A DNA stretch of 64,000 nucleotides from Paracoccaceae bacterium (GTDB lineage: Bacteria; Pseudomonadota; Alphaproteobacteria; Rhodobacterales; Rhodobacteraceae): assembly GCA_020832655.1 (NCBI GenBank), contig JAFIEF010000010.1, positions 1-64,000 of the forward strand, read 5' to 3'. Below the pieces are notes generated by a model. That model did no database searches. It saw only the letters and a list, made by a program, of their open reading frames with translations, and was not told the DNA's origin. The translations under genes and the position numbers were made by a program. Below, piece by piece: positions 3,120 to 61,161 of the stretch; position 1 is the first letter of the stretch, and each line of letters starts with the position of its first letter.

Positions 3120-3183
3120 GTCATGCGATGGCATCCTGACCTATTCTGGCTGAGTGATCAGGTTTCGAAAGCAGGGCGATCCG

Positions 3184-3723
3184 ATGCTGGCAGCGCGCGG
3201 CGATGTGTCAATTCCCAGAATACTTATCTTGCCGATGCGTGTATTGCCATTATGGCCGGTCTCATTGGGCCTGAGCGCGTTGGCCCGCAGGATTTTGCAG
3301 GCGCATCCCGAAATTCTTTCAAGAATTGATAAATATCAATCTAAAGGGTTCGCTCTGGATATCACCGACCTGCCCTTTGCGTTGCATCTGGACCCGGCGC
3401 GCGCGGCTGTGCGGGCCTGGCCGCGGGGCGCAGCACCACCAGCCGATGCGCGGATTTCTGGCACATTGGCGGGTTTTCTGGCCATGCTGCACGGTGTCGA
3501 GGATGGCGACACGCTGTTCTTTTCGGGGGCATTGCAGATCGAAGGGGACATGTCGGCAGTGCTGGCGCTGCGCAATGCGCTGGATGATGCAGAGCTTGAT
3601 CTGGGCGCGGAAGTCCAGCGCGCCCTGCCGATGCTGGCCCCGCCCTTGCGCGCGGCCATTGCCCGGTTCGAGCGCCTGACCGGCCTGCCCCTGCGCCGCC
3701 CCGACCTGTCAGAGGTGTATTGA
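3184..3723 (+). CDS. ubiT: UbiT, SCP2-domain accessory factor for anaerobic ubiquinone synthesis
   Basis: UbiT is a lipid-binding SCP2-domain protein that supports ubiquinone synthesis without oxygen, taking the place UbiJ has in air. The SCP2-like part includes FALHLDPARAAVRAWP and FFSGALQIEGDMSAVLALRNALD. I take ATG 3184 as start (179 residues). A GTG at 3154 would add ten residues, but the predicted FNR-dependent transcription start falls at about that base. It is followed at once by ubiU with a 1-base TGATG overlap, and the trio ubiT-U-V is the known arrangement for this pathway. Confidence 0.9.
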   Translation: MLAARGDVSIPRILILPMRVLPLWPVSLGLSALARRILQAHPEILSRIDKYQSKGFALDITDLPFALHLDPARAAVRAWPRGAAPPADARISGTLAGFLAMLHGVEDGDTLFFSGALQIEGDMSAVLALRNALDDAELDLGAEVQRALPMLAPPLRAAIARFERLTGLPLRRPDLSEVY

Positions 3724-5691: not shown

Positions 5692-6366
5692 TCAGGGAAG
5701 GAAGCGCGGCCAGATCTCGACCCCCGCGATCAGCTTATGCAGCACCAGAAGCGCCAGAACCATACCGAAGCCGAGGGCCAGTCGAAGATCCGCGCGCGGT
5801 GGCAGGGATGGTGCAGCGCGCGCGGCGCGCTGGCGCAGCGCTGCCCAGTCGGTTGCGCCCATCTGTTCCATCTTGCGGCGATCAATCATGCGCATGCCCA
5901 GCAGCGCAAAGGCGACAAACCCCCCGAACATCAGGACATGAGCCAGTGTTCCGGTGACGATCAGATGTGCGCCTGCCCATAGTGCCAGCGCCAGCAGGAC
6001 AGGATGGCGCAAACGCCCCGGCAATTCGGGCCTGTCGGGGTTGAAGCTGGCATTGCGCGCGCCCCCGAAGGAAAACGGATTGGGCCGCCCCAGGGTCAGG
6101 GCCAGCAGCAGCACCGCTGGCACCATCGCGGCCAGGGCGATCCAATGTGCGGATGCGGGCTTGGGCCACAAGACCACATGCGGCGCGCGGGCTGCTGCGA
6201 TGAAAAGCCATGCCAGCGCCCCAAGCGACAGGACCGAATAGGCGACCCCGAAACCCACACTGCCCAGCCGTGCAATCAGCCACGGCTTGACCGGCGGGCG
6301 CACAGGCACAGCATGGGTGAACAGAAAAAATGCCCATGCGCCCGCATATGCGCCCCAGCCTGTCAT
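5692..6366 (-). CDS. nnrU: NnrU family membrane protein
   Basis: A multi-pass inner-membrane protein of the NnrU family, linked with denitrification and NO metabolism in Rhodobacter and Paracoccus relatives; the molecular activity is unknown. The 224 residues contain about six hydrophobic segments and the family block PNPFSFGGARNASFN, which leads into RHPVLLALALWAGAHL. The ATG at 6366 overlaps the nnrS stop by four bases, so the pair is co-translated. The same frame stays open far upstream inside nnrS, but that part is antisense-frame noise and lacks NnrU similarity. Confidence 0.88.
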   Translation of the reverse strand: MTGWGAYAGAWAFFLFTHAVPVRPPVKPWLIARLGSVGFGVAYSVLSLGALAWLFIAAARAPHVVLWPKPASAHWIALAAMVPAVLLLALTLGRPNPFSFGGARNASFNPDRPELPGRLRHPVLLALALWAGAHLIVTGTLAHVLMFGGFVAFALLGMRMIDRRKMEQMGATDWAALRQRAARAAPSLPPRADLRLALGFGMVLALLVLHKLIAGVEIWPRFLP

Positions 6367-7574
6367 GAAGGGCGCGCCGTGCTGACCGCCTTGGATGCGT
6401 GTTTCGGGCGCGTCAGGATCGGCCAGTAGATCACGGCAAAGCCCCCGAAGCTGCCAATCCACAGTGTCGCGGACAGATACAGCAGCCAGAACTCGGCGGG
6501 CCAGATGCCGGCGGCCAGACGCGCAAATGTCGCCCCGATCAGGCAGATATACAGCGCTGCAACCGGGCGGCTGGCGGTCAGCGGCAATCCGGCATGGCCA
6601 AGGCTTGCGCGGGTCATGACCGCCAGTGTCATCAGGCCGATGGCCCCCGCCAGCCAGACATGGCGCGCGCCCGATTGCGCCATCAGTTCGAAGGCGGCGG
6701 CGCCGACACTCAGAAACCCCAGCGCCAGCATGGCATAGGCCACATGCAGCACCCACACCAGCGGCTCGCGCCCGGTCTGCTGGCCCTGCCAGCGCGACAT
6801 GCGCCAGATATTCGCAAGCCCCGCCATGATGCACAGAACCCCGGTCCCCCCGCCATCAGGGACCAGTACGAAAGCTGCAAGCGCTGTGCCGGTCAGCATC
6901 ATCACAACCCCATCCGCGCGCGCAAAGGGCACGGGCAGACGCGCCGCGCGGCGCTTGGCCAGCCAGTTGCGGGTGAAACTCGGCACGATGCGCCCGCCGA
7001 TCAGGGCAATCAGCAGCAGCCCGGCGGCCATGCCCAGCCGCAGCCCATAGCCATCTTGCGCGGGGCCGTGCGCTGCTTCCCAGTGGAACAGGGCATTGGC
7101 CAGGGCAAAAAGACCCATCAGGCCCAGCACGGGCAGGTTGCGCCAGTTGCGCCCGGCCAGAATCTCGCGCGCCAGAAACCCGATCAGGGCAATCGGCAGG
7201 GCAAGATCGGCAAGCGCTACGGTCACAGGCGGCAGAGCGCCGCCTATAAGCACGGCCAGACGCCCCAGCCCCCATAACCCCGCCAGCGCGGCAAGTGGCC
7301 AGCCCAGAACCGGCAGGCGCCCGGTCCAGTTGGGCACGGCGGTCAGCAGGAAGCCGGCAATCACGCCCCCAAGATAGCCGAACACAAAGGCATGGGCATG
7401 CCAGTCGATGGGCCCGAAGGCGTGGTTCAGCGGCGTATGGCCCGCCAGCAGCAGCAGCCAGAAAACCATTGCGAAAGCGGCCCAGATGGCTGCGAGCAGG
7501 AAAAAGGGGCGGAAGCCATGACTGAACAGCGCAGGCCCGGTCCAGCGGCGTGCTTGCGGGGTTGTGGTGGTCAT
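6363..7574 (-). CDS. nnrS: NnrS family heme/copper membrane protein
   Basis: NnrS is a polytopic membrane protein that protects against nitric oxide and nitrosative stress. The 403-residue protein has about twelve hydrophobic segments and family motifs such as FSHGFRPFFLLAAIWA near the start, PIDWHAHAFVFGYLGGVIAG, and LGHAGLPL near the C-terminus. The start MTTTTPQ (7574) is chosen because the 36 codons upstream do not look like NnrS and run over the operator. It is divergent from an NsrR-like regulator, which is its likely controller. Confidence 0.92.
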   Translation of the reverse strand: MTTTTPQARRWTGPALFSHGFRPFFLLAAIWAAFAMVFWLLLLAGHTPLNHAFGPIDWHAHAFVFGYLGGVIAGFLLTAVPNWTGRLPVLGWPLAALAGLWGLGRLAVLIGGALPPVTVALADLALPIALIGFLAREILAGRNWRNLPVLGLMGLFALANALFHWEAAHGPAQDGYGLRLGMAAGLLLIALIGGRIVPSFTRNWLAKRRAARLPVPFARADGVVMMLTGTALAAFVLVPDGGGTGVLCIMAGLANIWRMSRWQGQQTGREPLVWVLHVAYAMLALGFLSVGAAAFELMAQSGARHVWLAGAIGLMTLAVMTRASLGHAGLPLTASRPVAALYICLIGATFARLAAGIWPAEFWLLYLSATLWIGSFGGFAVIYWPILTRPKHASKAVSTARPS

Positions 7575-7618
7575 GGGCGGGATCCTTTGTTCAAGACTTG
7601 ATTGACCATAGGTGAATG

Positions 7619-7641
7619 AATAGGTATCGTAAATACCTATT
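7619..7641. promoter_or_regulatory. Inverted-repeat operator between nnrS and the NsrR-like gene
   Basis: A perfect 8-bp inverted repeat, AATAGGTA and TACCTATT, is separated by 7 bases. It lies 21 bases before the rrf2-type gene start and 44 bases before the nnrS start, in the shared divergent promoter region. The 23-bp dyad is the right size for an Rrf2-family dimer. Binding by the adjacent regulator is inferred, not shown. Confidence 0.65.
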
Positions 7642-7662
7642 GAAGCAAAACAGTCGGAAATC

Positions 7663-8109
7663 ATGCGCCTGACCTCCTTCACCGATTACGGCTTTCGGAT
7701 GCTGATGCGCATGGCGGGCGCAGCGGGGCAGAGTTTTTCAACCGCAGAGCTTGCGCGGGAACTGGGGCTGTCGCGCCACCACCTGATGAAGATCATCCAG
7801 AAACTGGCCGCTGCGGGATTTGTCGAAACCCGTCGCGGCGGTGGCGGCGGGGCGCGGCTGGCGCGCGACCCGGCGCAGATTTCGCTGGGGGAAATCCTGC
7901 GGGTTCTGGAAACTGGCCACGCGCTTGTGGAATGTTTCGGGCCGGGTCAATCCGCCTGCACGCTGATGCCGGGATGTCGGCTAAGGCATGAACTGGCGGA
8001 AGCTGAAGCCGCCTTTCTGGCGCATCTTGACCGCCGGACATTGGCGGATATTGCCTGGCCAAACCCGCGCGATGGCGCAACCCGCTGGTGTTCGCCACCT
8101 GACACATGA
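7663..8109 (+). CDS. Rrf2 family regulator, NsrR-like
   Basis: A 148-residue winged-helix repressor of the Rrf2 family. The N-terminal helix-turn-helix is seen in SFSTAELARELGLSRHHLMKI, with the wing GGGGGARLA. Three cysteines at 91, 99 and 105 in the context ECFGPGQSACTLMPGCRL match the Fe-S cluster cysteines of NsrR, the nitric oxide sensor. Divergent nnrS-nnrU, a NO-protection pair, strongly supports NO sensing. A second NsrR-like gene lies at 43415-43852, so the two may divide targets. IscR is unlikely given the spacing of the cysteines. Confidence 0.87.
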   Translation: MRLTSFTDYGFRMLMRMAGAAGQSFSTAELARELGLSRHHLMKIIQKLAAAGFVETRRGGGGGARLARDPAQISLGEILRVLETGHALVECFGPGQSACTLMPGCRLRHELAEAEAAFLAHLDRRTLADIAWPNPRDGATRWCSPPDT

Positions 8110-8221: not shown

Positions 8222-9190
8222 CTAATCGCCCAGCATCCATTCCCCTTGCGGAAACAGCGCATGGAAGGCAAAGGCAAAGGGGATGTCATGCGGCAGATCG
8301 CGCCCGGCCGTATCGCGCACGCGCACGGTGCCGACATCGCGCCCTTGCGCGATATTGCGGCTGTCCAGCGCCGAAGCCTGCCCCGGTGCCCAGCTCAGCA
8401 CCACGCCAGCTTCGCGGATTTCGCCTTCCTCGCGCAGCCGCGCGAAGGTCCAGGCGCGGTTTTCGACCCGCACCACACGGGCCAGCGGCGCAATGCCATG
8501 CGGCGGGTCTTCGCCTTGATAAAGGAACGGGCGGGCAGAGCTGTCATAGCCGACATAGGGGTTCGAACCATAGGCGCGGCGCCATTCGGGTTCGTCCAGC
8601 ACCAGCCCGTCGGGGTTGCGCGCGATGAACTCGGCCCAGCTTTCCATCCAGCCGGGCAGCAGTTCCAGGCTCTGCCCGGTGTGCTGCCCGACAATGCCTT
8701 CGCCGGTGGCCTGCTGCCACCAGCTTTCGGTTTCGCGGTCATACATGACCATATCGGAATGGCGCAGCTTGCCCGAAACCCCGAAACTATGGCGCGCGCC
8801 GTCGATGCGCGCATCAAAGATCATGGCCGAGTTGCACAGCGGGCAGAAAGTGACCGCAATCGGCATGTCACCCACCACATCATTGACGATTTCATGCCAC
8901 ATCAGATAGCGGATCGGATAGGCGCGCGCGGTCTTTCCGGGGTGTTCATAGGTCATCACCGGCTCGCGCGGGTCGATGCGGGCCTCTTCGGATGCGGCGA
9001 TGAAGGCGGGTTCCCAGATCGCGGGAATACCGTCGCGGGGCGGGCCGCCGGACATGATTTCGGACAGATCGACATTACGCGTCTCGAAATCGGTCTTGGG
9101 GAATTCCGCGCGCCAGCCTGCGGGCACCTGAGCCAGCGCAGGCAGGGCGATCAGGGCGGCACTGAAGGCGAGTGTGGCAAGGCGGATCAT
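8222..9190 (-). CDS. DUF3179 domain secreted protein
   Basis: A 322-residue exported protein of the DUF3179 family, function unknown. The start MIRLATLAFSAALIALPALA is a signal peptide and ATG 9190 has a GAGGAG ribosome site. The family hallmark AVTFCPLCNSAMIFDAR carries a CxxC pair, followed by DMVMYDRETESWWQQATGEG, also typical. It is the last gene of a three-gene unit led by the P460-like cysteine-rich protein, only 11 bases after the preceding stop. The CxxC pair suggests metal or thiol chemistry in the periplasm, but this is inference. Confidence 0.85.
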   Translation of the reverse strand: MIRLATLAFSAALIALPALAQVPAGWRAEFPKTDFETRNVDLSEIMSGGPPRDGIPAIWEPAFIAASEEARIDPREPVMTYEHPGKTARAYPIRYLMWHEIVNDVVGDMPIAVTFCPLCNSAMIFDARIDGARHSFGVSGKLRHSDMVMYDRETESWWQQATGEGIVGQHTGQSLELLPGWMESWAEFIARNPDGLVLDEPEWRRAYGSNPYVGYDSSARPFLYQGEDPPHGIAPLARVVRVENRAWTFARLREEGEIREAGVVLSWAPGQASALDSRNIAQGRDVGTVRVRDTAGRDLPHDIPFAFAFHALFPQGEWMLGD

Positions 9191-9201
9191 GGCATGTCTC
9201 C

Positions 9202-9696
9202 TCAGTCGATCTGCAACTTGGTCGCGAAGCTGCCGGTTGCGACCCGGCAATTCCCGGTATCATGCGCGGCGATGACCGAGGCGCGTGCGCATAATGTCAC
9301 CTCGAAGTGGCCCGCAATTCGCGGGCGTGGCCCGGAAAGCTGCACCTGTTCGAATATGAAAGACCCCGGTGCGGGTAGCTTGGCGGTTTGCCAGTAGTTG
9401 ACATAGCCGTCGGGGCGATAGCTTACGCGGGCGTCAATCGGCTGCGCATCAATCCCGGCTTCGGGCGGCAGGGCGAATTTCACAACCAGCCGCGCCGCGC
9501 CTGCCTGCCCTTCGATGCTGATCGCATCCAGCATCGAAAAGCGGGTCATCCCGGCACGACCGGGCACCGGCTGGAACTGCGCCGGGGCGTCGGAAAAGAC
9601 GAAACGCAGAAATTCGCTATCCGCCACGCCCTGTGCCGTTGTCTGCATTGGCAGGATCAGACAGAGCAAGGCAAGTGATGCGGCGGATGGTTTCAT
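9202..9696 (-). CDS. Small secreted protein of unknown function
   Basis: A 164-residue protein with a clear signal peptide (MKPSAASLALLCLILPMQTT) and an AGGAGGAG ribosome site before ATG 9696. The rest looks like a soluble beta-rich domain with two cysteines (in TLCARAS and GNCRVATG) that could pair in a disulfide. I do not recognise a family. It sits between the P460-like gene and the DUF3179 gene with short gaps (60 and 11 bases), so it is probably co-expressed and periplasmic, as they are. Confidence 0.72.
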   Translation of the reverse strand: MKPSAASLALLCLILPMQTTAQGVADSEFLRFVFSDAPAQFQPVPGRAGMTRFSMLDAISIEGQAGAARLVVKFALPPEAGIDAQPIDARVSYRPDGYVNYWQTAKLPAPGSFIFEQVQLSGPRPRIAGHFEVTLCARASVIAAHDTGNCRVATGSFATKLQID

Positions 9697-9756
9697 CGCT
9701 CCTCCTGTCACCAACGGCGCGACGCAGCGGGACATTATCGCCCCGGTGCACGCCGG

Positions 9757-10896
9757 TCAGTTCCGCAGACGGTACTGTTCCTCCATGAACAGCAGATCAT
9801 CGGTGTTGTCGCTCATCCCCATGTGACAGGCGGCACAGAAATACATCCCGTCCGAATTCGCGCCCAGTGTGCGGCCCATGAGGCTGCCATCAGGCATGAT
9901 GGCGGTGTAGATCCAGTCATTCGTGTCGGGCGAGGTTCCGGCTTCGGCCTTTTCCATCAGGAACAGGGTTTCCCAATAGGCCTGCCCGTCCGGGCCGATG
10001 CTGAAGGTTGGCTTTGCGACGATGCCACCTGCGGGCATTTCGCCGATATCTTCGAAAAGGCCATAGACCTCGGCGGCGACGGGATTGGCGTGATTGGTGG
10101 CAAAGCGTTCCCCATGCGTGAACGAAATATAGGGCGTGGCGGCGAAATTCGTCCAGGCGGCGAAATCCCGGCCCTCTGCGCGGTCGGATTCCGACCAGGA
10201 GGCCAGAATCGGCTGTGCCTGCCCGCTGGCATCCATCGCTTCCATCATCTCGATCATACAGTCATAGAGGGCTTGCAACTCCTCATCGCTGACCTCGGGT
10301 GGTGGGGCACCGGCTGCACAGGGGCCACAGGGTCCGCACGCCCCGCAGGGACCGCAGGCGGCACAATCCATCGCCGCGCAGGGCGCGCAGGGATCACAGA
10401 CCGCGCAAGGATTGGCGGCGCAGGCATTGGCCGCGCATGGGTTTGCAGCGCAGGGGTTAGCGGCACAGGGGTCTGCCGCGCAGCCCATCGCTGCGCAGGG
10501 ATCACACGCCGCCGGGGCGCAGGGACCGCAGGGATCAGCCGCACAGGGGTTGGCGCTTGCCTGTTGCAGGCGGGGGATGAAACAGCCCGTGGCGTCACCG
10601 GCACCCGCAGCGCAGGGACCACATGGACCGCATGGGCCACAGGGTCCACAAGCCCCGCAGGGCGCACATGCCGCGCAATCCATTGCTGCGCAGGGTGCGC
10701 AGGGGCCGCAAGCCGCACAGGGATTGGCGGCGCAGGCATTCGCCACCGCCGGGGTGGCAAGGCCCAGAACCATGATCGCGCCACCCAGGCTCATCGCGCC
10801 CATGCCAAGCGCCAGCGCCAGCGCGGTGCTTGACCTTAGTTGCGGTTTGCAGCGACAGCGACACTGGCAGGTTGCGGCTTCTGGGTTTGGTTGCAT
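9757..10896 (-). CDS. Cytochrome P460-like protein fused to a cysteine-rich repeat domain
   Basis: A 379-residue exported protein. Residues 20-53 form a signal-type hydrophobic segment, preceded by a cysteine-rich n-region (CQCRCRC at 10-16). Residues 55-193 are low-complexity repeats of CAANPC, CGPC and CAPC units holding 34 cysteines. Two longer blocks (about 55-99 and 159-197) share the order [28 protein letters not shown] and CAAGA, so the domain grew by duplication. Residues 228-379 look like a cytochrome P460 domain with one heme-c site CAACH at 354-358. P460 proteins handle hydroxylamine or NO. The repeat may bind thiophilic metal or form disulfides, which is inference. It is divergent from an ECF/NrsF pair. 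Confidence 0.82.
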
Positions 10897-10975: not shown

Positions 10976-11007
10976 ATTGCGACTGGTCCCGGTGAAAAGT
11001 TACATCC
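10976..11007 (-). promoter_or_regulatory. Putative ECF sigma promoter for the P460-like gene
   Basis: Read on the minus strand, GGATGTAAC (11007 to 10999) is followed after about 17 bases by CGCAAT. The same nonamer occurs in the promoter facing the sigma gene, in the opposite direction. Short -35-like GTAAC elements of this kind are known for sigma factors partnered with NrsF, for example Caulobacter SigF. The leader to the start codon is roughly 75 bases. Confidence 0.55.
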
Positions 11008-11046: not shown

Positions 11047-11077
11047 GGATGTAACCTTGCGCCGTGCCGCCCGTATC
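11047..11077 (+). promoter_or_regulatory. Putative autoregulatory promoter of the ECF sigma gene
   Basis: GGATGTAACC at 11047-11056 is followed after 15 bases by CGTATC at 11072-11077. The GGATGTAAC element is identical to the one in the divergent promoter, which suggests that the sigma factor drives both its own operon and the P460-like operon. Confidence 0.58.
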
Positions 11078-11135
11078 CGGTGGGGAAGGCAGGCAGCTGT
11101 CGCCAGATCAGGAATTGAAACGGCATGACCCCGAC

Positions 11136-11747
11136 ATGACCCCGACGCGCGAGGGCGACCAGACCAGAGCCACGACCCAGAGCCGCCATGCCGCGCTGGA
11201 TGCGTTGATGCGCGCGGCGCAGCATGGCGACAGCCGCGCCTATCACACGCTGCTGCAAGAGGTGGCGGACCGAATGCGACGCCTTGTTGCGGCCCGCGCG
11301 CCCTGGCTGGGCAAGGCCGATATCGAGGATATCGTGCAGGATGTGCTGCTGTCGCTGCATATGGCACGGGCGACATGGGATCCCGCCCGCCCCTTCATGC
11401 CGTGGATTGCGGCCATCGCGCGCAACCGTCTGACCGACCATGCGCGCCGCTACAAGCGCCGGCAGGCTTTTGATCAGGCCGCCAGCGATCTGGCCGAAGT
11501 CTTTTCGACCACGCCCGGCCAGTCCCATGCCGAGGGGGTGGTGAATCTGATATCGGTGCGTCGGGCGATGTCTGATCTCAGCCCCGGCGAAAGGCGCGCT
11601 TTCTCTATGGTGCGTCTTCAGGAAATGTCGCTGGCAGAGGCCGCAGAGAAAGGACAGACGACAATTGGCGCGATCAAGGTTGCCGTGCATCGGGCGTCGC
11701 GTAAACTGAAGCAGGCCATCAACCGCGATGGCAAGGAGAGCGAATGA
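11136..11747 (+). CDS. ECF-type RNA polymerase sigma factor
   Basis: A 203-residue sigma-70 family factor of the extracytoplasmic-function type. Region 2 is seen in DIEDIVQDVLLSLHMARATWDPARPFMPWIAAIARNRL split by the linker, and region 4 in LQEMSLAEAAEKGQTTIGAIKVAVHRA. I choose ATG 11136 because the frame upstream is unlike sigma factors and covers the promoter. It overlaps the next gene, an NrsF-type anti-sigma, by four bases. Together with the mirrored promoter this predicts a stress-induced regulon including the P460-like protein. Confidence 0.92.
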   Translation: MTPTREGDQTRATTQSRHAALDALMRAAQHGDSRAYHTLLQEVADRMRRLVAARAPWLGKADIEDIVQDVLLSLHMARATWDPARPFMPWIAAIARNRLTDHARRYKRRQAFDQAASDLAEVFSTTPGQSHAEGVVNLISVRRAMSDLSPGERRAFSMVRLQEMSLAEAAEKGQTTIGAIKVAVHRASRKLKQAINRDGKESE

Positions 11748-12397
11748 AAACCGACGCATTGATCGATGCCCTGGCGCGTGATGCCGGTCCGGTGCGGGTT
11801 CTGCCCCCGGCGGTGCGTCGTGTCTGGGCCTGGCTGGCGATTGCGTTGTCCTTCGCCGCGGCGATGGTATGGGCGATCGGCCCGCGCCCGGATCTGGCCG
11901 AACGGATGGTGGAGGCACGGTTCCTGTTCGAACAGGGCGCGGCGCTGGCCACGGCGATTGCCGCGGCGCTGGCGGCGCTGGCGCTGACCGTGCCTGATGC
12001 CGCGCGCTTCTGGCGCTGGCTGCCGGTCATCCCGGCGGGTGCATGGCTGGGCACGCTGGGTCTGGGTTGCCTGCGCGACTGGGCGCAGATGGGGGCAGAG
12101 GGGCTGCGCCTGACACCGGACCCGCAATGCTTCGCCTATATCGCGTTGATCGGGTCGCTGCCCATGATGGCGCTGGTGCTGATGCTGCGCAAGGGCGCGC
12201 CGCTGCGCCCGTCCTGGACGCTGGCACTGGCCGCGCTGGCCGCTGCCGCCATCGGCAATTTCGCGCTGCGGCTGTTTCACATGCAGGATGCGGCGTTGAT
12301 GGTGCTGGTCTGGCAAGCGGGCGCGGTGGCGTTGATTGCGGGTATTGCGGGGCTGTGCGGTCGGCATGTCCTGCGCTGGCCGGGGGTGCCGGCATGA
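11744..12397 (+). CDS. NrsF family (DUF1109) anti-sigma factor
   Basis: A 217-residue integral membrane protein with about six transmembrane segments, matching the NrsF/DUF1109 family that sequesters a cognate ECF sigma factor. In Caulobacter NrsF, conserved cysteines are needed for the response to chromium and cadmium; two cysteines here (109 in LGLGCL and 129 in DPQCF) are candidates for the same sensor role. The start overlaps the sigma gene by four bases, the normal arrangement for a sigma/anti-sigma pair. The inducing signal is not known from the sequence. Confidence 0.88.
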   Translation: MKTDALIDALARDAGPVRVLPPAVRRVWAWLAIALSFAAAMVWAIGPRPDLAERMVEARFLFEQGAALATAIAAALAALALTVPDAARFWRWLPVIPAGAWLGTLGLGCLRDWAQMGAEGLRLTPDPQCFAYIALIGSLPMMALVLMLRKGAPLRPSWTLALAALAAAAIGNFALRLFHMQDAALMVLVWQAGAVALIAGIAGLCGRHVLRWPGVPA

Positions 12398-13140
12398 CCA
12401 TTGTGCCGCGCGCAATCGCTGTGCCGGATCTGTCACGGCTGGATCTTGCAACGCTGAAAATGATGGCCGCTGCCGCCGATGAAATCGACGAATGCGCCCG
12501 CGTGCTGAAAAAGGCCGGGCTGAACCCGGTGGGCGAGGTGCTGAAAGGGCAGGGTCAGTTCGTCAAGATGAGCCATTACCCCAAGGGCGATGTCTTCGAC
12601 CGTGAAACGCACAGCCAGTATTACTATCATGCCCATCGCGAGGGCGAGCATGGGCATTTTCACTGCTTTCTGCGCGCGCCGGGCATGCCCGAAGATGTGG
12701 CCCCCGCGCCCGAGGCCGCAGGCCGCGACTGGCCCGCTGGCGACAAGGCGCTGGCGCATCTGGTGGCCGTGTCGATGGATCGCTTCGGCGTGCCGATCCG
12801 GCTGTTCACCACCAATCAATGGGTGACGGGCGAGACATGGTATCGCGGCGCGGATGTCGTCCGCATGCTGCCGCGCTTCGCCATTGACCATGCCCATCCA
12901 AGCTGGCCCACCAATCGCTGGCTGACCGCGCTGCTGCGGCTGTTCCGCCCGCAGATCGAGGCGCTGATTGCCGCGCGTGACGAGGCGCTTGCCGGGCAAA
13001 TGGCCGCTGCCCCGGACGCCGACCCCTTCACCAACCGAAAGTTTGAAACCCTTAGCGAAATTGCAATTGATGTCGCGCAGCAGCAGGCGGCAGTGCGCAG
13101 GTTGCTTGGCCGGGATCAGCCGGAAAAGCCGCCGGTCTGA
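12394..13140 (+). CDS. DUF6969 family protein
   Basis: A 248-residue soluble protein that fits the DUF6969 family; function unknown. It contains the histidine/tyrosine-rich stretch SQYYYHAHREGEHGHFHCF around residues 72-90, which could bind a metal, and a later DHAHPSWPTNRW segment. ATG 12394 overlaps the anti-sigma stop, so it is the third gene of the sigma operon and likely belongs to the stress response. Its 3' end overlaps the convergent galE by 25 bases. Confidence 0.78.
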   Translation: MTIVPRAIAVPDLSRLDLATLKMMAAAADEIDECARVLKKAGLNPVGEVLKGQGQFVKMSHYPKGDVFDRETHSQYYYHAHREGEHGHFHCFLRAPGMPEDVAPAPEAAGRDWPAGDKALAHLVAVSMDRFGVPIRLFTTNQWVTGETWYRGADVVRMLPRFAIDHAHPSWPTNRWLTALLRLFRPQIEALIAARDEALAGQMAAAPDADPFTNRKFETLSEIAIDVAQQQAAVRRLLGRDQPEKPPV

Positions 13141-14099
13141 TACCAGCGCCACGCGTCTTCGATCATCAGCTTGAGCGAGGAACGCTCGGCGCGCCAGCCA
13201 AGTTCGTCATTGGCGCGGGTGCTGCCCGAAACCAGCGCCGCCGCATCGCCTTCGCGCCGTGGCCCGAATTCATGCGGAACCTTGCGCCCGGTGCCCGCGC
13301 GACACTGGCGGATGACCTCTGCCACCGAAAACCCGACCCCGGTGCCCAGATTGAAGACACGGCTGCCATGTCCGGCGCGCAGCCATTCAAGACCCTTTAG
13401 ATGGGCATCCACCAGATCCATGACATGGACATAGTCGCGCACACAGGTGCCATCATCGGTGGGGTAATCCGTGCCGTGGATAATCAACGCCGGGCGCTTG
13501 CCTGCGGCTGCTTCAATCATCACCGGGATCAGATGCGTTTCGGGTTGGTGCCATTCCCCGATCTCGGCTTCCGGGTCGGCACCGGCCACATTGAAATAGC
13601 GAAAGATCACCGAATTCAGCCCGTGACTTTTGCCGAAATCGCGCAACATGGCTTCTACCGCGAGTTTCGACGCCCCATAGGCGTTCAGCGGATATTGCGG
13701 GCTGTCTTCGTTCAGGATGACGCCATCCTGATCCCCATATGTGGCGCAGGTCGATGAAAACACCATATCCGCACAGCCGGCTTCTGCCATCGCCTCGATC
13801 AGGTTCAACGACCCGCAGACATTGTTGCGCCAATACAGGCCAGGGTCGCGGGTGGCTTCCCCGACCTGGCTTAGCGCGCCGAAATGCATCACGGCAATGG
13901 GCCTGAACTCTGCGAAAGCCGCAGCCAGAGCGGCCTTGTCCAGCAAATCGCCCTGCACGAAGGGGCCAAATTTCACCGCGCTGGCCCAGCCGGTAGACAG
14001 ATTGTCGAATGTGACCGGCACATAGCCCGCACGCGCCAGAAGCTTGCAGGCATGAGAGCCAATATACCCCGCGCCGCCAGTAACCAGAATAGTGTTCAT
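13116..14099 (-). CDS. galE: UDP-glucose 4-epimerase
   Basis: Interconverts UDP-glucose and UDP-galactose for surface polysaccharide. The 327-residue SDR protein begins with the NAD-binding GGAGYIGSHACKLL motif and shows VMHFGALSQVGEA, the catalytic YGASK, and GTDYPTDDGTCVRDYVHVMDLV split across the substrate site, all hallmarks of GalE. It starts a stretch of polysaccharide genes. Its stop lies within the end of the convergent DUF6969 gene. Confidence 0.93.
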   Translation of the reverse strand: MNTILVTGGAGYIGSHACKLLARAGYVPVTFDNLSTGWASAVKFGPFVQGDLLDKAALAAAFAEFRPIAVMHFGALSQVGEATRDPGLYWRNNVCGSLNLIEAMAEAGCADMVFSSTCATYGDQDGVILNEDSPQYPLNAYGASKLAVEAMLRDFGKSHGLNSVIFRYFNVAGADPEAEIGEWHQPETHLIPVMIEAAAGKRPALIIHGTDYPTDDGTCVRDYVHVMDLVDAHLKGLEWLRAGHGSRVFNLGTGVGFSVAEVIRQCRAGTGRKVPHEFGPRREGDAAALVSGSTRANDELGWRAERSSLKLMIEDAWRWYQTGGFSG

Positions 14100-14454
14100 G
14101 AAACCTCAATCAGACTGTTCGACAATGGTTTGCAAGATGTTGACCTATCGCTGCGGGCATTGCGACAATGTGCAATCAGAATGTGCATGCTGATAGGCAT
14201 GTGCCGCTGTATTGCGCATATGGACCGCCTGAATGCGTGCCTTGAACCGGGCCGGAATGCCCGTGATGCCGCGGTCGCGATGGTTCATGGCGCCTCGAAA
14301 TTCTGCGCCTGCACCATGCGCTGAAAACGCCGGAGCATCAAGAAGGAAGGTGGCAACATCAAGGGTGTCTGCATTATTGCAACCAGTAATTTATGTTCCC
14401 GCCGGGAATGCCAGATGCTGTGGCGTGCAAGGGTGCAGCCGCCCTGACGTCCTG
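14100..14454. other. Intergenic stretch without recognised gene
   Basis: About 355 bases between the start of galE and the end of the ligase gene. Short open frames are present but lack ribosome sites and family similarity. A small hairpin (CCTGAC / GTCAGG) lies at about 14445-14460 at the ligase stop and has no T-tract. The galE promoter must lie here, but I cannot place it. Confidence 0.5.
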
Positions 14455-15945
14455 TCAGGACGGGCTTTGCTCTGCCCGGCGCAACCGCCCCAGCGCAATC
14501 GCCAGAATCACGACAAACAGCATGAGATTGGCCTGGATTTCCAGGCTGAAATCAACCAGTGAATGCAACGCCATCTGCACGATCACAGCAAGCCCCAGAA
14601 CCGAGACGGCGTAATTGGTGCGTCGCCGCCGGATGATCCCGACAAGCTTGACCATCGCGACTGCCAGCAGAAGCATTGGCACGCTGCCCATGATCAGCCC
14701 TGCCTCGACCCACCACATCAGATAGGATGAATGGGCAAGCTCCCAGACCAGTGCGCTGGTGACCGGGGGCTGGTGGACCAGTTCAAAAGCGGCGCGAAAG
14801 CCGTCAATCCCCACACCCAGCCAGGGGGCTTCGGTGATCATTTCGATGGTCTGCATGTATAGCTCTGTCCGGCTGTCCCCATCGGCCACTGTGAACAAGG
14901 CGCGCTCGGTCAGGTCCGCGCCCAGAGTCAGCGCGGCAACAGCCGCCGCTGCAGCCGCGATCACGCTGGCGCGAAACAGCGCCTTGAATGGCTGGTCATG
15001 CCATTTCAGGGCCATGACCAGATAGGCAACCCAGGCGCCAAAGAAGGACGACACGACCCCCATGCGCGATTGTGTGGCCAGCAAGGTGATCGCGATGATA
15101 AAGACCATCAGCCACAACAGGGCCAATTCGATGTTCTTCTCGCTCAGCAATGTCTGGCCGCGCGAATTGCGGGTATGGGGGCGATGCGCCCGCTGCAGGA
15201 TCATGCAGACGCCGGCGACCAGCCCCATCCCCAGGAAAGCAGCAAAGGAATTGCGATTCACGAATGTCCCGGTTGCTGCGCCGTGATAGGCGATCTTTTC
15301 GCCCCACAAGACGAAATCATCCAGAAAGATCAGCGCGAATAATGCCCAGAATGCATGCAGCAGGACAATAAAGAACAGCCCCCAGGCCATTAGGCTGACG
15401 CGCTCGGCACGGGTCGAGATTTCGAACACCAGCACGAACAACGCGAAAATCCCGAACATACGCATCCCGGCAAGCAAGGTCGCGTCCGGCGCAACGCTGC
15501 CCAGCGGCAACGTGAAGCCGACAAAGCTGGTGGTCATGCCGGTCAGGCTGAGCAGATACTGAAGGAATGCAAAACCCGGCAACGCCATACCGGCCAGAAT
15601 GAAGCGCCATGCCTGCGCGCTGGTCAATGGCCGCAGTGGTTCGACGATACGCATCGCGATCATGTAGACCGCCAGTGCAAGGCAAATGATCAGCGACCAA
15701 AGCAGCCAGAAGACGGGCCAGACCGATGCCATCGGGATTGGCGCCAACGCAATGCAGCCCAGAACGAACCAGGCTGTTGCATCATTGATCGCGCGCCCTT
15801 TGCTGGTCAGCCCTGCGGCACCGGGGGTTGTCCCCTTCAGTTTGCGTTCTTCGAATATCAGGGATGATCTGCGGGGCTGGGGTGTCGGCGGGGAAATATG
15901 CGCGCGCTGGTTCTGCGGTTGCCGCGGTTTATCGAAATTGATCAT
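14455..15945 (-). CDS. O-antigen ligase/polymerase family membrane protein
   Basis: A 496-residue integral membrane protein with about eleven or twelve hydrophobic segments, of the O-antigen ligase (Wzy_C/WaaL) family, which polymerises or transfers surface polysaccharide in the periplasm. Family signs are the FVNRNSFAAFLGMGLVAG segment, ATQSRMGVVS and the periplasmic loop APWLGVGIDGFRAAFE. I start at MINFDKPRQ (15945); the first about 80 residues are cytoplasmic and proline-rich. Ligase and Wzy-type polymerase cannot be told apart from sequence alone; the adjacent sugar transferase and Wzc favour a polymerase. Confidence 0.83.
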   Translation of the reverse strand: MINFDKPRQPQNQRAHISPPTPQPRRSSLIFEERKLKGTTPGAAGLTSKGRAINDATAWFVLGCIALAPIPMASVWPVFWLLWSLIICLALAVYMIAMRIVEPLRPLTSAQAWRFILAGMALPGFAFLQYLLSLTGMTTSFVGFTLPLGSVAPDATLLAGMRMFGIFALFVLVFEISTRAERVSLMAWGLFFIVLLHAFWALFALIFLDDFVLWGEKIAYHGAATGTFVNRNSFAAFLGMGLVAGVCMILQRAHRPHTRNSRGQTLLSEKNIELALLWLMVFIIAITLLATQSRMGVVSSFFGAWVAYLVMALKWHDQPFKALFRASVIAAAAAAVAALTLGADLTERALFTVADGDSRTELYMQTIEMITEAPWLGVGIDGFRAAFELVHQPPVTSALVWELAHSSYLMWWVEAGLIMGSVPMLLLAVAMVKLVGIIRRRRTNYAVSVLGLAVIVQMALHSLVDFSLEIQANLMLFVVILAIALGRLRRAEQSPS

Positions 15946-16126
15946 GAACGCCTGTCCGAGCCCTACGTCATTCCCGCGCGCTATGCGACACAAATGGGCA
16001 GGCTTTTCATCAGCCATCCCCCTGATCACGTGCATAGACATCATGACAACGCGCAAGTCAACAAGCGCGGTCTGGTGACAGATATCAACACGAGTTTGTC
16101 ATCGGGGTGGCGATGGTCGGCCCGAA

Positions 16127-60615: not shown

Positions 60616-61161
60616 ATGGTAAGATTGCTGTCCATGCCCATTCTGGGGGCGCTGATTCTGTCGGCCTGCACGATGACAGGTGTGCCCATGCGCATGGGGC
60701 CGGATGGGCGACCTGTGCCTGCGGTATACCGGATCGGGCCGAATGACGCGCCGCGCGTGCGCCAGCGGATGCAGGACGGGTTGAACACGATGCGCGCCCA
60801 GCATGGACTGCCGCCGCTGCAGGCAAGTGCCGAACTGGCCAGCGCTGCCGCGACCCATGCGCAGGACATGTCCTTCCAGAGCCGTCCCTGGCATTGGGGG
60901 TCGGACGGGTCCAGCCCGATGCAGCGCGCCCAGCGCGCAGGCTATACCGGTGCCTTTATCGGCGAGATGGTGTCAGAGACCTTCGAGACCGAGATCGAAA
61001 CCGTTACCGCATGGATGCAGGAAGCCGAAACCCGCGCCGTGATCCTTGATAGCCGCGCGCGCGAGGTCGGCGTGGGCTGGCATCAGGATGCCAATGGCAA
61101 GCTGTGGTGGGTCGTGGTTCTGGGCGAACCGCAAGCGGGTTTCCAGATATCGGCGCGCTGA
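60616..61161 (+). CDS. CAP-domain (SCP-like) lipoprotein
   Basis: A 181-residue exported protein with a lipobox LILSACTM (lipidation Cys 18). The CAP/PR-1 domain shows ELASAAATHAQDMSFQSRPWHWGSDGSSPMQRAQRAGY (in two blocks) and FIGEMVSE, then VGVGWHQDANGKLWWVVVLG. The role of bacterial CAP proteins is mostly unknown; some bind calcium or cell-wall material. A GGGAAG site precedes the ATG. Confidence 0.85.
   Translation: MVRLLSMPILGALILSACTMTGVPMRMGPDGRPVPAVYRIGPNDAPRVRQRMQDGLNTMRAQHGLPPLQASAELASAAATHAQDMSFQSRPWHWGSDGSSPMQRAQRAGYTGAFIGEMVSETFETEIETVTAWMQEAETRAVILDSRAREVGVGWHQDANGKLWWVVVLGEPQAGFQISAR

Follow-up and report, generated by a model that had tools for sequence, protein, structure and literature searches.

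Metallothioneins and bacterial copper storage proteins have a high cysteine content and are presumed to bind metal ions through thiolates. Here we describe a gene that joins cysteine-rich sequence to a heme domain. It lies in a 64,000 nt stretch of DNA from Paracoccaceae bacterium (GCA_020832655.1, contig JAFIEF010000010.1, positions 1–64,000; the window, from genome G000) and encodes a fusion protein in which two cysteine arrays precede a domain of the cytochrome P460/c'-beta superfamily. Within this superfamily the residue at the heme cross-link site is Lys70 in NeP460, Met79 in NeCP-beta and Phe61 in TtCP-beta, while the residues listed for the carboxylate site are Glu96 (NeP460), Ala109 and Gly82 (PMC11928373). 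Active P460 enzymes use the carboxylate at this position as a proton acceptor, and NsP460, which keeps the lysine and has alanine at the carboxylate site, does not oxidise hydroxylamine (PMC11928373, Table 2). 'Halfway house' P460s with non-polar pockets are described there as having functions yet to be resolved (PMC11928373). On the regulatory side, sigma/NrsF genes accompany the Buf1 clusters that encode bufferins (PMC12452194). In Caulobacter, copper, cadmium and chromate all induce the sigmaF regulon, whose members include DUF2282/DUF692 genes, and sensitivity to copper is seen in a sigF mutant (PMC3511200, PMC8224329); the sigmaF promoter reads GTAACC-N16-CGAA (PMC3511200).

The fusion family and its heme domain

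The fusion protein carries 34 of its 41 cysteines within residues 55–193, with 13 in array 1, one in the spacer and 20 in array 2. The repeated units are CAANPC (four copies), CGPC (nine) and CAPC (three), and the array blocks are identical to each other at 33 of 40 residues in a local BLAST alignment. An earlier note on this DNA had described the 34 cysteines, their units, an internal duplication and a single CAACH heme-c site, and our counts agree. Absent from that note was the spacer between the two arrays, which reads GCFIPRL and contains C105. As cysteine in the array is encoded by 21 TGC and 13 TGT codons and alanine by all four of its codons, the array is no fresh exact DNA repeat. The gene is present as a single copy in its genome (3.24 Mb, 121 contigs). 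The hydrophobic N-terminus, judged by eye, together with the CxxCH site suggests that the protein is probably exported, as the note had also proposed. On the plus strand (9823–10833) the gene is overlapped by an open frame of 336 aa; since it is the minus-strand frame that relatives conserve, we take the plus-strand one to be a mere consequence of the GC-rich repeat.

The joining of arrays and heme domain into one protein, which the note had read from this DNA, is borne out by a survey of homologs. One scan of genome contigs provided 16 named relatives with a domain identity of 56–90%, comprising Rhodobacteraceae metagenome-assembled genomes (MAGs), one Natronohydrobacter MAG, Alkalilacustris brevis, Rhabdonatronobacter sediminivivens and two Alphaproteobacteria MAGs. 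In 15 of these 16 the arrays and the heme domain share one frame, with the arrays first, which argues against a frame artefact; the remaining relative, L045, has a MAG contig on which the fusion frame is broken in its N-terminal part (5963–6527). In a class-level sample the domain is present in 55 of 385 genomes, and 27 of the 29 class-level proteins read have cysteine arrays, a count that includes L048 (partial array at a contig end) and L061 (short array); L056 and L063 are without any. An artefact of assembly or frame is thereby ruled out. The fusion is genuine and its family is spread through Alphaproteobacteria. A phylum-level sample of 398 genomes gave seven matches, six within Alphaproteobacteria and one weak match outside (2.6e-6). 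Row set A2 takes in 29 of 47 loci. Plasmid and PHROGs searches in the follow-up of the fusion cluster gave no match.

Array letters vary among relatives, with CAANPC, CNPCAAKNPC and CGACGAKK all represented, and usually form two blocks flanking the spacer. The spacer itself, C-x-[VI]-P-[RS], is found in 38 of 41 proteins having at least eight N-terminal cysteines; L043 and L046 read C-F-V-P-G and L071 is cut at a contig end. A spacer of the C-x-[VI]-P-R type is also found in L095 and L096. A tree built from 72 domains puts the window protein inside a 17-row group of fusions from Rhodobacteraceae and kin (support 100/100), which neighbours fusions from other alphaproteobacterial families, with the deeper order poorly resolved. 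Most unfused homologs from the window's own family form a separate 22-row group (support 97/93), and the fused label requires 4 changes on the tree compared with 23.4 in shuffles.

A domain search places the C-terminal region, which the note had called P460-like, in the cytochrome P460/c'-beta superfamily when the family is considered as a whole. Taken alone, the window protein scores below the Pfam cut-off of 27 bits against PF16694 (17.9 bits for the whole protein, 20.1 bits for the domain). All 29 family members scanned match PF16694 at E <= 0.01, the best at 3.4e-11, and a 29-row family profile matches the solved structures 7ead (3.1e-11), 7s5o (2e-7), 8gar (0.004) and 2je2 (0.0059). The six best PDB fold matches of a low-confidence AlphaFold model of the domain (mean predicted local distance difference test, pLDDT, 46.9) are c'-beta/P460 proteins (E 0.017–0.048). 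In our alignments a near-invariant Lys295 is in register with NeP460 Lys70, NeCP-beta Met79 and TtCP-beta Phe61, and a heme cross-link through this residue is putative. The distal carboxylate position of NeP460 Glu96 is taken by Phe312 when aligned by hand, four residues before the following lysine. This assignment rests on one alignment choice and is softer than that of Lys295, because HMMER and MAFFT leave the NeP460 stretch in an insertion. As aligned, the domain has the NsP460-like combination of this lysine and a non-polar carboxylate site. With phenylalanine at the catalytic carboxylate position, hydroxylamine oxidation by the fusion protein is unlikely.

Promoter sequences and NrsF

A sigmaF-type sequence is directed toward the fusion gene in all 16 regions compared (window and L033–L047), and a similar site is directed toward the gene for the extracytoplasmic function (ECF) sigma factor in 10 of the 16. 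The exact consensus occurs in L035, L039, L040, L041, L043, L044 and L045, and also in L047. Counted from the fusion start, the site is present in 17 of 18 regions (window, L032–L047 and L003, whose sequence matches that of L044). L047 is the one missed, because its site precedes a free small cysteine-array gene (3162–3473) that stands between it and the fusion gene. Chance would supply 0.3 sites in the window (64 kb, both strands) and two were found. A second sigmaF-type match in the window, at 61007 on the minus strand, is far from the cluster and compatible with chance.

NrsF is found in four of 31 fusion genomes searched (G000, G037, G431, G657), where it is the sole NrsF and stands beside the fusion gene. 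The promoter-like site is present in all four NrsF-bearing fusion genomes and in none of 24 testable fusion genomes without NrsF (p=5e-5, kinship uncorrected). These 24 have at least 350 nt of upstream sequence, three others (G310, G301, G488; loci L048, L070, L071) being left out as contig-cut, and they are not independent, as several share a genus. The window NrsF passes the PF06532 cut-off (113.2 bits against 26.8) and scores below that of the NCBIfam equivalog NF042994 (30.7 against 300). In an alignment made without Caulobacter NrsF, whose two conserved cysteines are C131 and C181, a D-x-x-C motif is kept in 11 of 11 rows and the GC of LGCLRD in 10 of 11.

Partner proteins, free arrays and the wider locus

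The ECF, NrsF and DUF6969 genes are upstream of the fusion gene and divergent from it, and genes for a small protein and a DUF3179 protein follow downstream (Table 1). The ECF start is set at an internal ATG, because most relatives align from residues 19–25 of the mechanical open reading frame (ORF); the 4-base overlaps of Table 1 assume that the inferred starts are correct. In the 16 named loci, several of whose contigs end too early to tell, matches to both ECF and NrsF are found in 14, to DUF6969 in 15, to DUF3179 in nine and to the small protein in seven.

Table 1. Coordinates of the fusion gene, its parts and its surroundings in the window
Feature	Position	Strand	Basis or remark
Cysteine-array/P460-like fusion protein, 379 aa	9757..10896	-	ORF reading
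N-terminal leader, residues 1-54: CQCRCRC head and hydrophobic stretch to ATPAVANA; putative export signal	10735..10896	-	by eye
Cysteine array 1, residues 55-95, 13 Cys	10612..10734	-	residue count
Conserved spacer C-x-[VI]-P-R, residues 96-117, including C105	10546..10611	-	comparison of relatives
Cysteine array 2, residues 118-193, 20 Cys	10318..10545	-	residue count
P460/c'-beta-like heme-c domain, residues 203-379	9760..10290	-	profile and structure comparison
Lys295, opposite NeP460 cross-linking Lys70	10012..10014	-	alignment
CAACH heme-c site, residues 354-358	9823..9837	-	motif, once in protein
sigmaF-type sequence GTAACT-N16-CGCA toward fusion gene	10978..11003	-	two departures from GTAACC-N16-CGAA
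sigmaF-type sequence GTAACC..CGTA toward ECF gene	11051..11075	+	spacing one base shorter
ECF sigma factor	11136..11747	+	start inferred at internal ATG of mechanical ORF 11064-11747
NrsF anti-sigma factor, PF06532 1.9e-32	11744..12397	+	4-base overlap with ECF stop
DUF6969 protein, PF22308 1.9e-82	12394..13140	+	4-base overlap with NrsF stop; start inferred
Small protein, no assigned family, exported-looking by eye	9202..9735	-	21 nt downstream of fusion gene
DUF3179 protein, PF11376 8.6e-82	8222..9250	-	next gene, same direction

DUF6969 is found in 30 of 31 fusion genomes compared with four of 31 others (p=6e-12), the others being the first of the class sample lacking a domain match, 18 of them under 2.5 Mb; set against the larger genomes alone the figures are 30 of 31 and four of 13 (p=9e-6), with kinship uncorrected in both. 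In 20 genomes this gene and the fusion are no more than 6 kb apart, whereas 10 have it elsewhere, and L096 (2361–6069) has two DUF6969 genes close to one fusion gene. Twelve aligned rows share an invariant HxH-x(3-7)-EHGHFH stretch. The predicted structure is fairly confident (mean pLDDT 78.4, predicted template modelling score 0.82) and has no fold match in the PDB at E <= 0.001, nor does the sequence match there at E <= 1; on this model DUF6969 may represent a new fold that has a site rich in histidine.

Of the 31 fusion genomes, 22 have a match below 1e-100 to a SUMF1/FGE-like protein, as does none of the 31 others, while weak SUMF1 matches (E 1e-29 to 0.001) occur in nine of the others and four fusion genomes. 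The gene is near DUF6969 in 21 of the 22 genomes and near the fusion in 13. Two proteins scanned match PF03781 at 5e-43 and 1.2e-42 and are exported-looking by eye; the structure matches are FGE, PvdO and EgtB, and nine aligned rows share an invariant G-C-G-x-C.

Free small cysteine-array proteins with leader-like N-termini are encoded within ~4 kb of the fusion in seven loci. Free arrays also stand beside DUF6969 or SUMF1 genes in L113, L114 and L115, with no fusion in the stretch read. A free array gene is present too in L109, from a genome (G321) that has DUF6969 and lacks the heme fusion. In L112 and L116 the free array gene comes with a two-block array protein that is truncated at the contig end and may be a further fusion; L117 holds only a fragment at a contig end. 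When one free array protein was used as query across the class, 51 of 385 genomes gave a match, many of the matches being fusions and a few having internal stops; the counts are lower bounds, as the window's own array was missed, and the 26 genomes scored with free copies are so scored partly on frame length alone. The occurrence of free arrays near fusions and near DUF6969 or SUMF1 genes indicates that, at the level of sequence, the cysteine array is a recurrent module to which the heme domain is one attachment.

Among other genes of the locus, the DUF3179 protein contains a CPLC stretch, and in two loci beyond the window's close relatives, L087 and L093, it also neighbours the fusion. Past the DUF6969 gene come genes for a GalE-like epimerase and an O-antigen ligase-like (Wzy_C) protein (13116–16056).

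Function and comparison with known systems

Starting from the architecture, its conservation, the promoter sequences, gene linkage and co-occurrence, all of them legible in the DNA, we infer export, metal binding, the heme cross-link, regulation and roles for the fusion protein. Our tentative preference, to which we give a little less than an even chance, is that metal stress in the envelope induces the protein, which after export would buffer soft metal ions, Cu(I) being the likeliest, through its thiolates. NrsF would sense metal stress at the membrane and release the ECF sigma factor, which would then read the divergent sigmaF-type promoters. Array 1 with its 13 cysteines and array 2 with its 20 would then chelate metal outside, and the C-x-[VI]-P-R spacer would be the hinge between them. 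The heme-c domain may set the redox state of the arrays or serve as an electron outlet, rather than oxidise hydroxylamine, and DUF6969, joined in many relatives by the SUMF1/FGE-like protein, may act in maturation or maintenance of the arrays. By analogy, the simplest reading would have the same kind of switch as in the sigmaF/Buf1 systems driving a cysteine-array protein in place of a bufferin. Metal or thiol buffering, put forward in the earlier note, is the best-supported role.

Several observations weigh against such a metal buffer. The window's own promoter-like site deviates from the published consensus at two positions, and NrsF, present in four of the 31, is too rare among fusion genomes for metal control to be extended from it to all of them. 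L046 has a promoter-like site and has space for ECF and NrsF genes beside its DUF6969 gene, with neither present at the locus, the level at which this was checked. The Caulobacter sigF mutant is no more sensitive to cadmium or chromate, and a related C. metallidurans cluster is without effect on copper resistance (PMC8224329). SUMF1 has no match in the genome of the window, and the heme-domain model, built with 16 close rows, is of low confidence. A pure metal sponge would moreover leave the heme domain unexplained. Finally, perchlorate reducers use a sigF/nrsF pair in responding to hypochlorite (PMC4623255), so that the signal here could be an oxidant.

The main rival reading is a sacrificial thiol sink for hypochlorite, peroxide or peroxynitrite, in which the arrays would be converted to disulfides or sulfenates, sparing other envelope proteins, and the heme would pass electrons to or from them. 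The methionine-rich peptide system under SigF/NrsF control provides a precedent (PMC4623255), the Caulobacter sigF mutant is weaker in stationary-phase oxidative-stress resistance (PMC8224329), and the CGPC/CNPC spacing of many units suits vicinal disulfides. However, no reductase is recognised among those conserved neighbours that could be identified, and we regard this role as possible though on the doubtful side. A scaffold in the envelope or outside the cell, cross-linked by disulfides and displaying the heme module on a polymer of arrays, would account for low-complexity arrays that keep a regular cysteine spacing while varying greatly in repeat number and letters, and co-existing free array peptides could co-polymerise with it; the tie to a regulator of metal-stress type in the window's lineage speaks against a scaffold, and it seems to us very improbable.

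The earlier note had coupled the buffer to nitrosative-stress chemistry, and this part of its proposal has fared less well. In that proposal NO would bind to the heme, or hydroxylamine would be its substrate, and the thiols would capture NO through S-nitrosation, a role to which membership of the P460 superfamily lends some plausibility, given that NO binding has been proposed for cytochromes c'-beta (PMC11928373). In the window, genes for NnrU (PF07298), NnrS (PF05940) and an Rrf2-family regulator also adjoin the cluster (5692–8109), the last matching the NCBIfam NsrR and RirA models below their cut-offs. Yet none of the three has a match in the loci of relatives, four of which (L032, L035, L041, L044) are informative, extending 3.9–5.0 kb past DUF3179, enough to show them; a nitrosative operon as conserved context is thereby ruled out. 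Phenylalanine at the proton-accepting carboxylate position, and the inactivity on hydroxylamine of NsP460 with its lysine and alanine (PMC11928373), point the same way, and a nitrosative role is improbable.

A further proposal concerns maturation. DUF6969 and the SUMF1/FGE-like protein might constitute an MNIO-free system that modifies cysteines in exported arrays, whether free or fused to the heme domain, at or near the C-x-[VI]-P-R spacer. The product would be a metallophore or redox protein that bears the modification and is coupled to a heme of P460-like type; as a specific claim we consider this unlikely.

In the open-licence literature no paper was found on the repeat letters or on DUF6969, and searches combining P460 with cysteine-rich or metal terms left the fusion family undescribed among the matches listed; the terms 'cysteine-rich', 'fusion' and 'N-terminal domain' are without occurrence in the P460 review (PMC11928373). 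Our results thus add an uncharacterised, exported-looking cysteine-array family found in many alphaproteobacteria, with DUF6969, a SUMF1-like protein and, in the window's lineage, ECF/NrsF as recurrent partners. If our favoured metal buffer is correct, thiol or metal redox in the envelope would become a possible setting for P460s with non-polar pockets, DUF6969 would gain a testable context, and a further route to metal buffering would exist that needs no MNIO enzyme.

Bufferins, which are copper-chelating ribosomally synthesised and post-translationally modified peptides (Buf1/DUF2282) modified by MNIO enzymes, resemble the fusion protein in being cysteine-rich and, for Buf1, in their adjacent sigma/NrsF genes (PMC12452194). 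They differ in that the fusion protein carries a heme domain and has DUF6969 and SUMF1 as partners. Membership of the bufferins is ruled out, because MNIO (PF05114) has no match in the window's genome; a Pfam scan of the fusion protein gives only P460 and no DUF2282. Nor is MNIO positively linked to the fusion in general, occurring in seven of 31 fusion genomes and 14 of 31 others. In the MrpX system of perchlorate reducers SigF/NrsF is likewise paired with a protein enriched in a single sulfur amino acid (PMC4623255), whereas the fusion protein has cysteine for methionine, adds a heme domain and has no recognised YedYZ pair adjoining it.

The SUMF1/FGE fold (PF03781) is shared in the sense that a family member adjoins DUF6969 in many relatives, and it is absent from the window's genome. 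FGE recognises its substrates by a C-x-P-x-R motif, which the spacer between the arrays, C-x-[VI]-P-[RSG], resembles without matching. With the P460/c'-beta superfamily (PF16694) the fusion protein shares a CxxCH near the C-terminus, a lysine at the NeP460 Lys70 position and matches to 7ead, 7s5o, 8gar and 2je2; it differs by its two N-terminal cysteine arrays and by phenylalanine in place of NeP460 Glu96. By sequence it resembles the 'halfway house' P460s with non-polar pockets (PMC11928373). Compared with metallothioneins and copper storage proteins, the fusion protein stands apart through its Pro/Ala/Asn-rich CNPC/CAAxNPC repeats and its heme domain.
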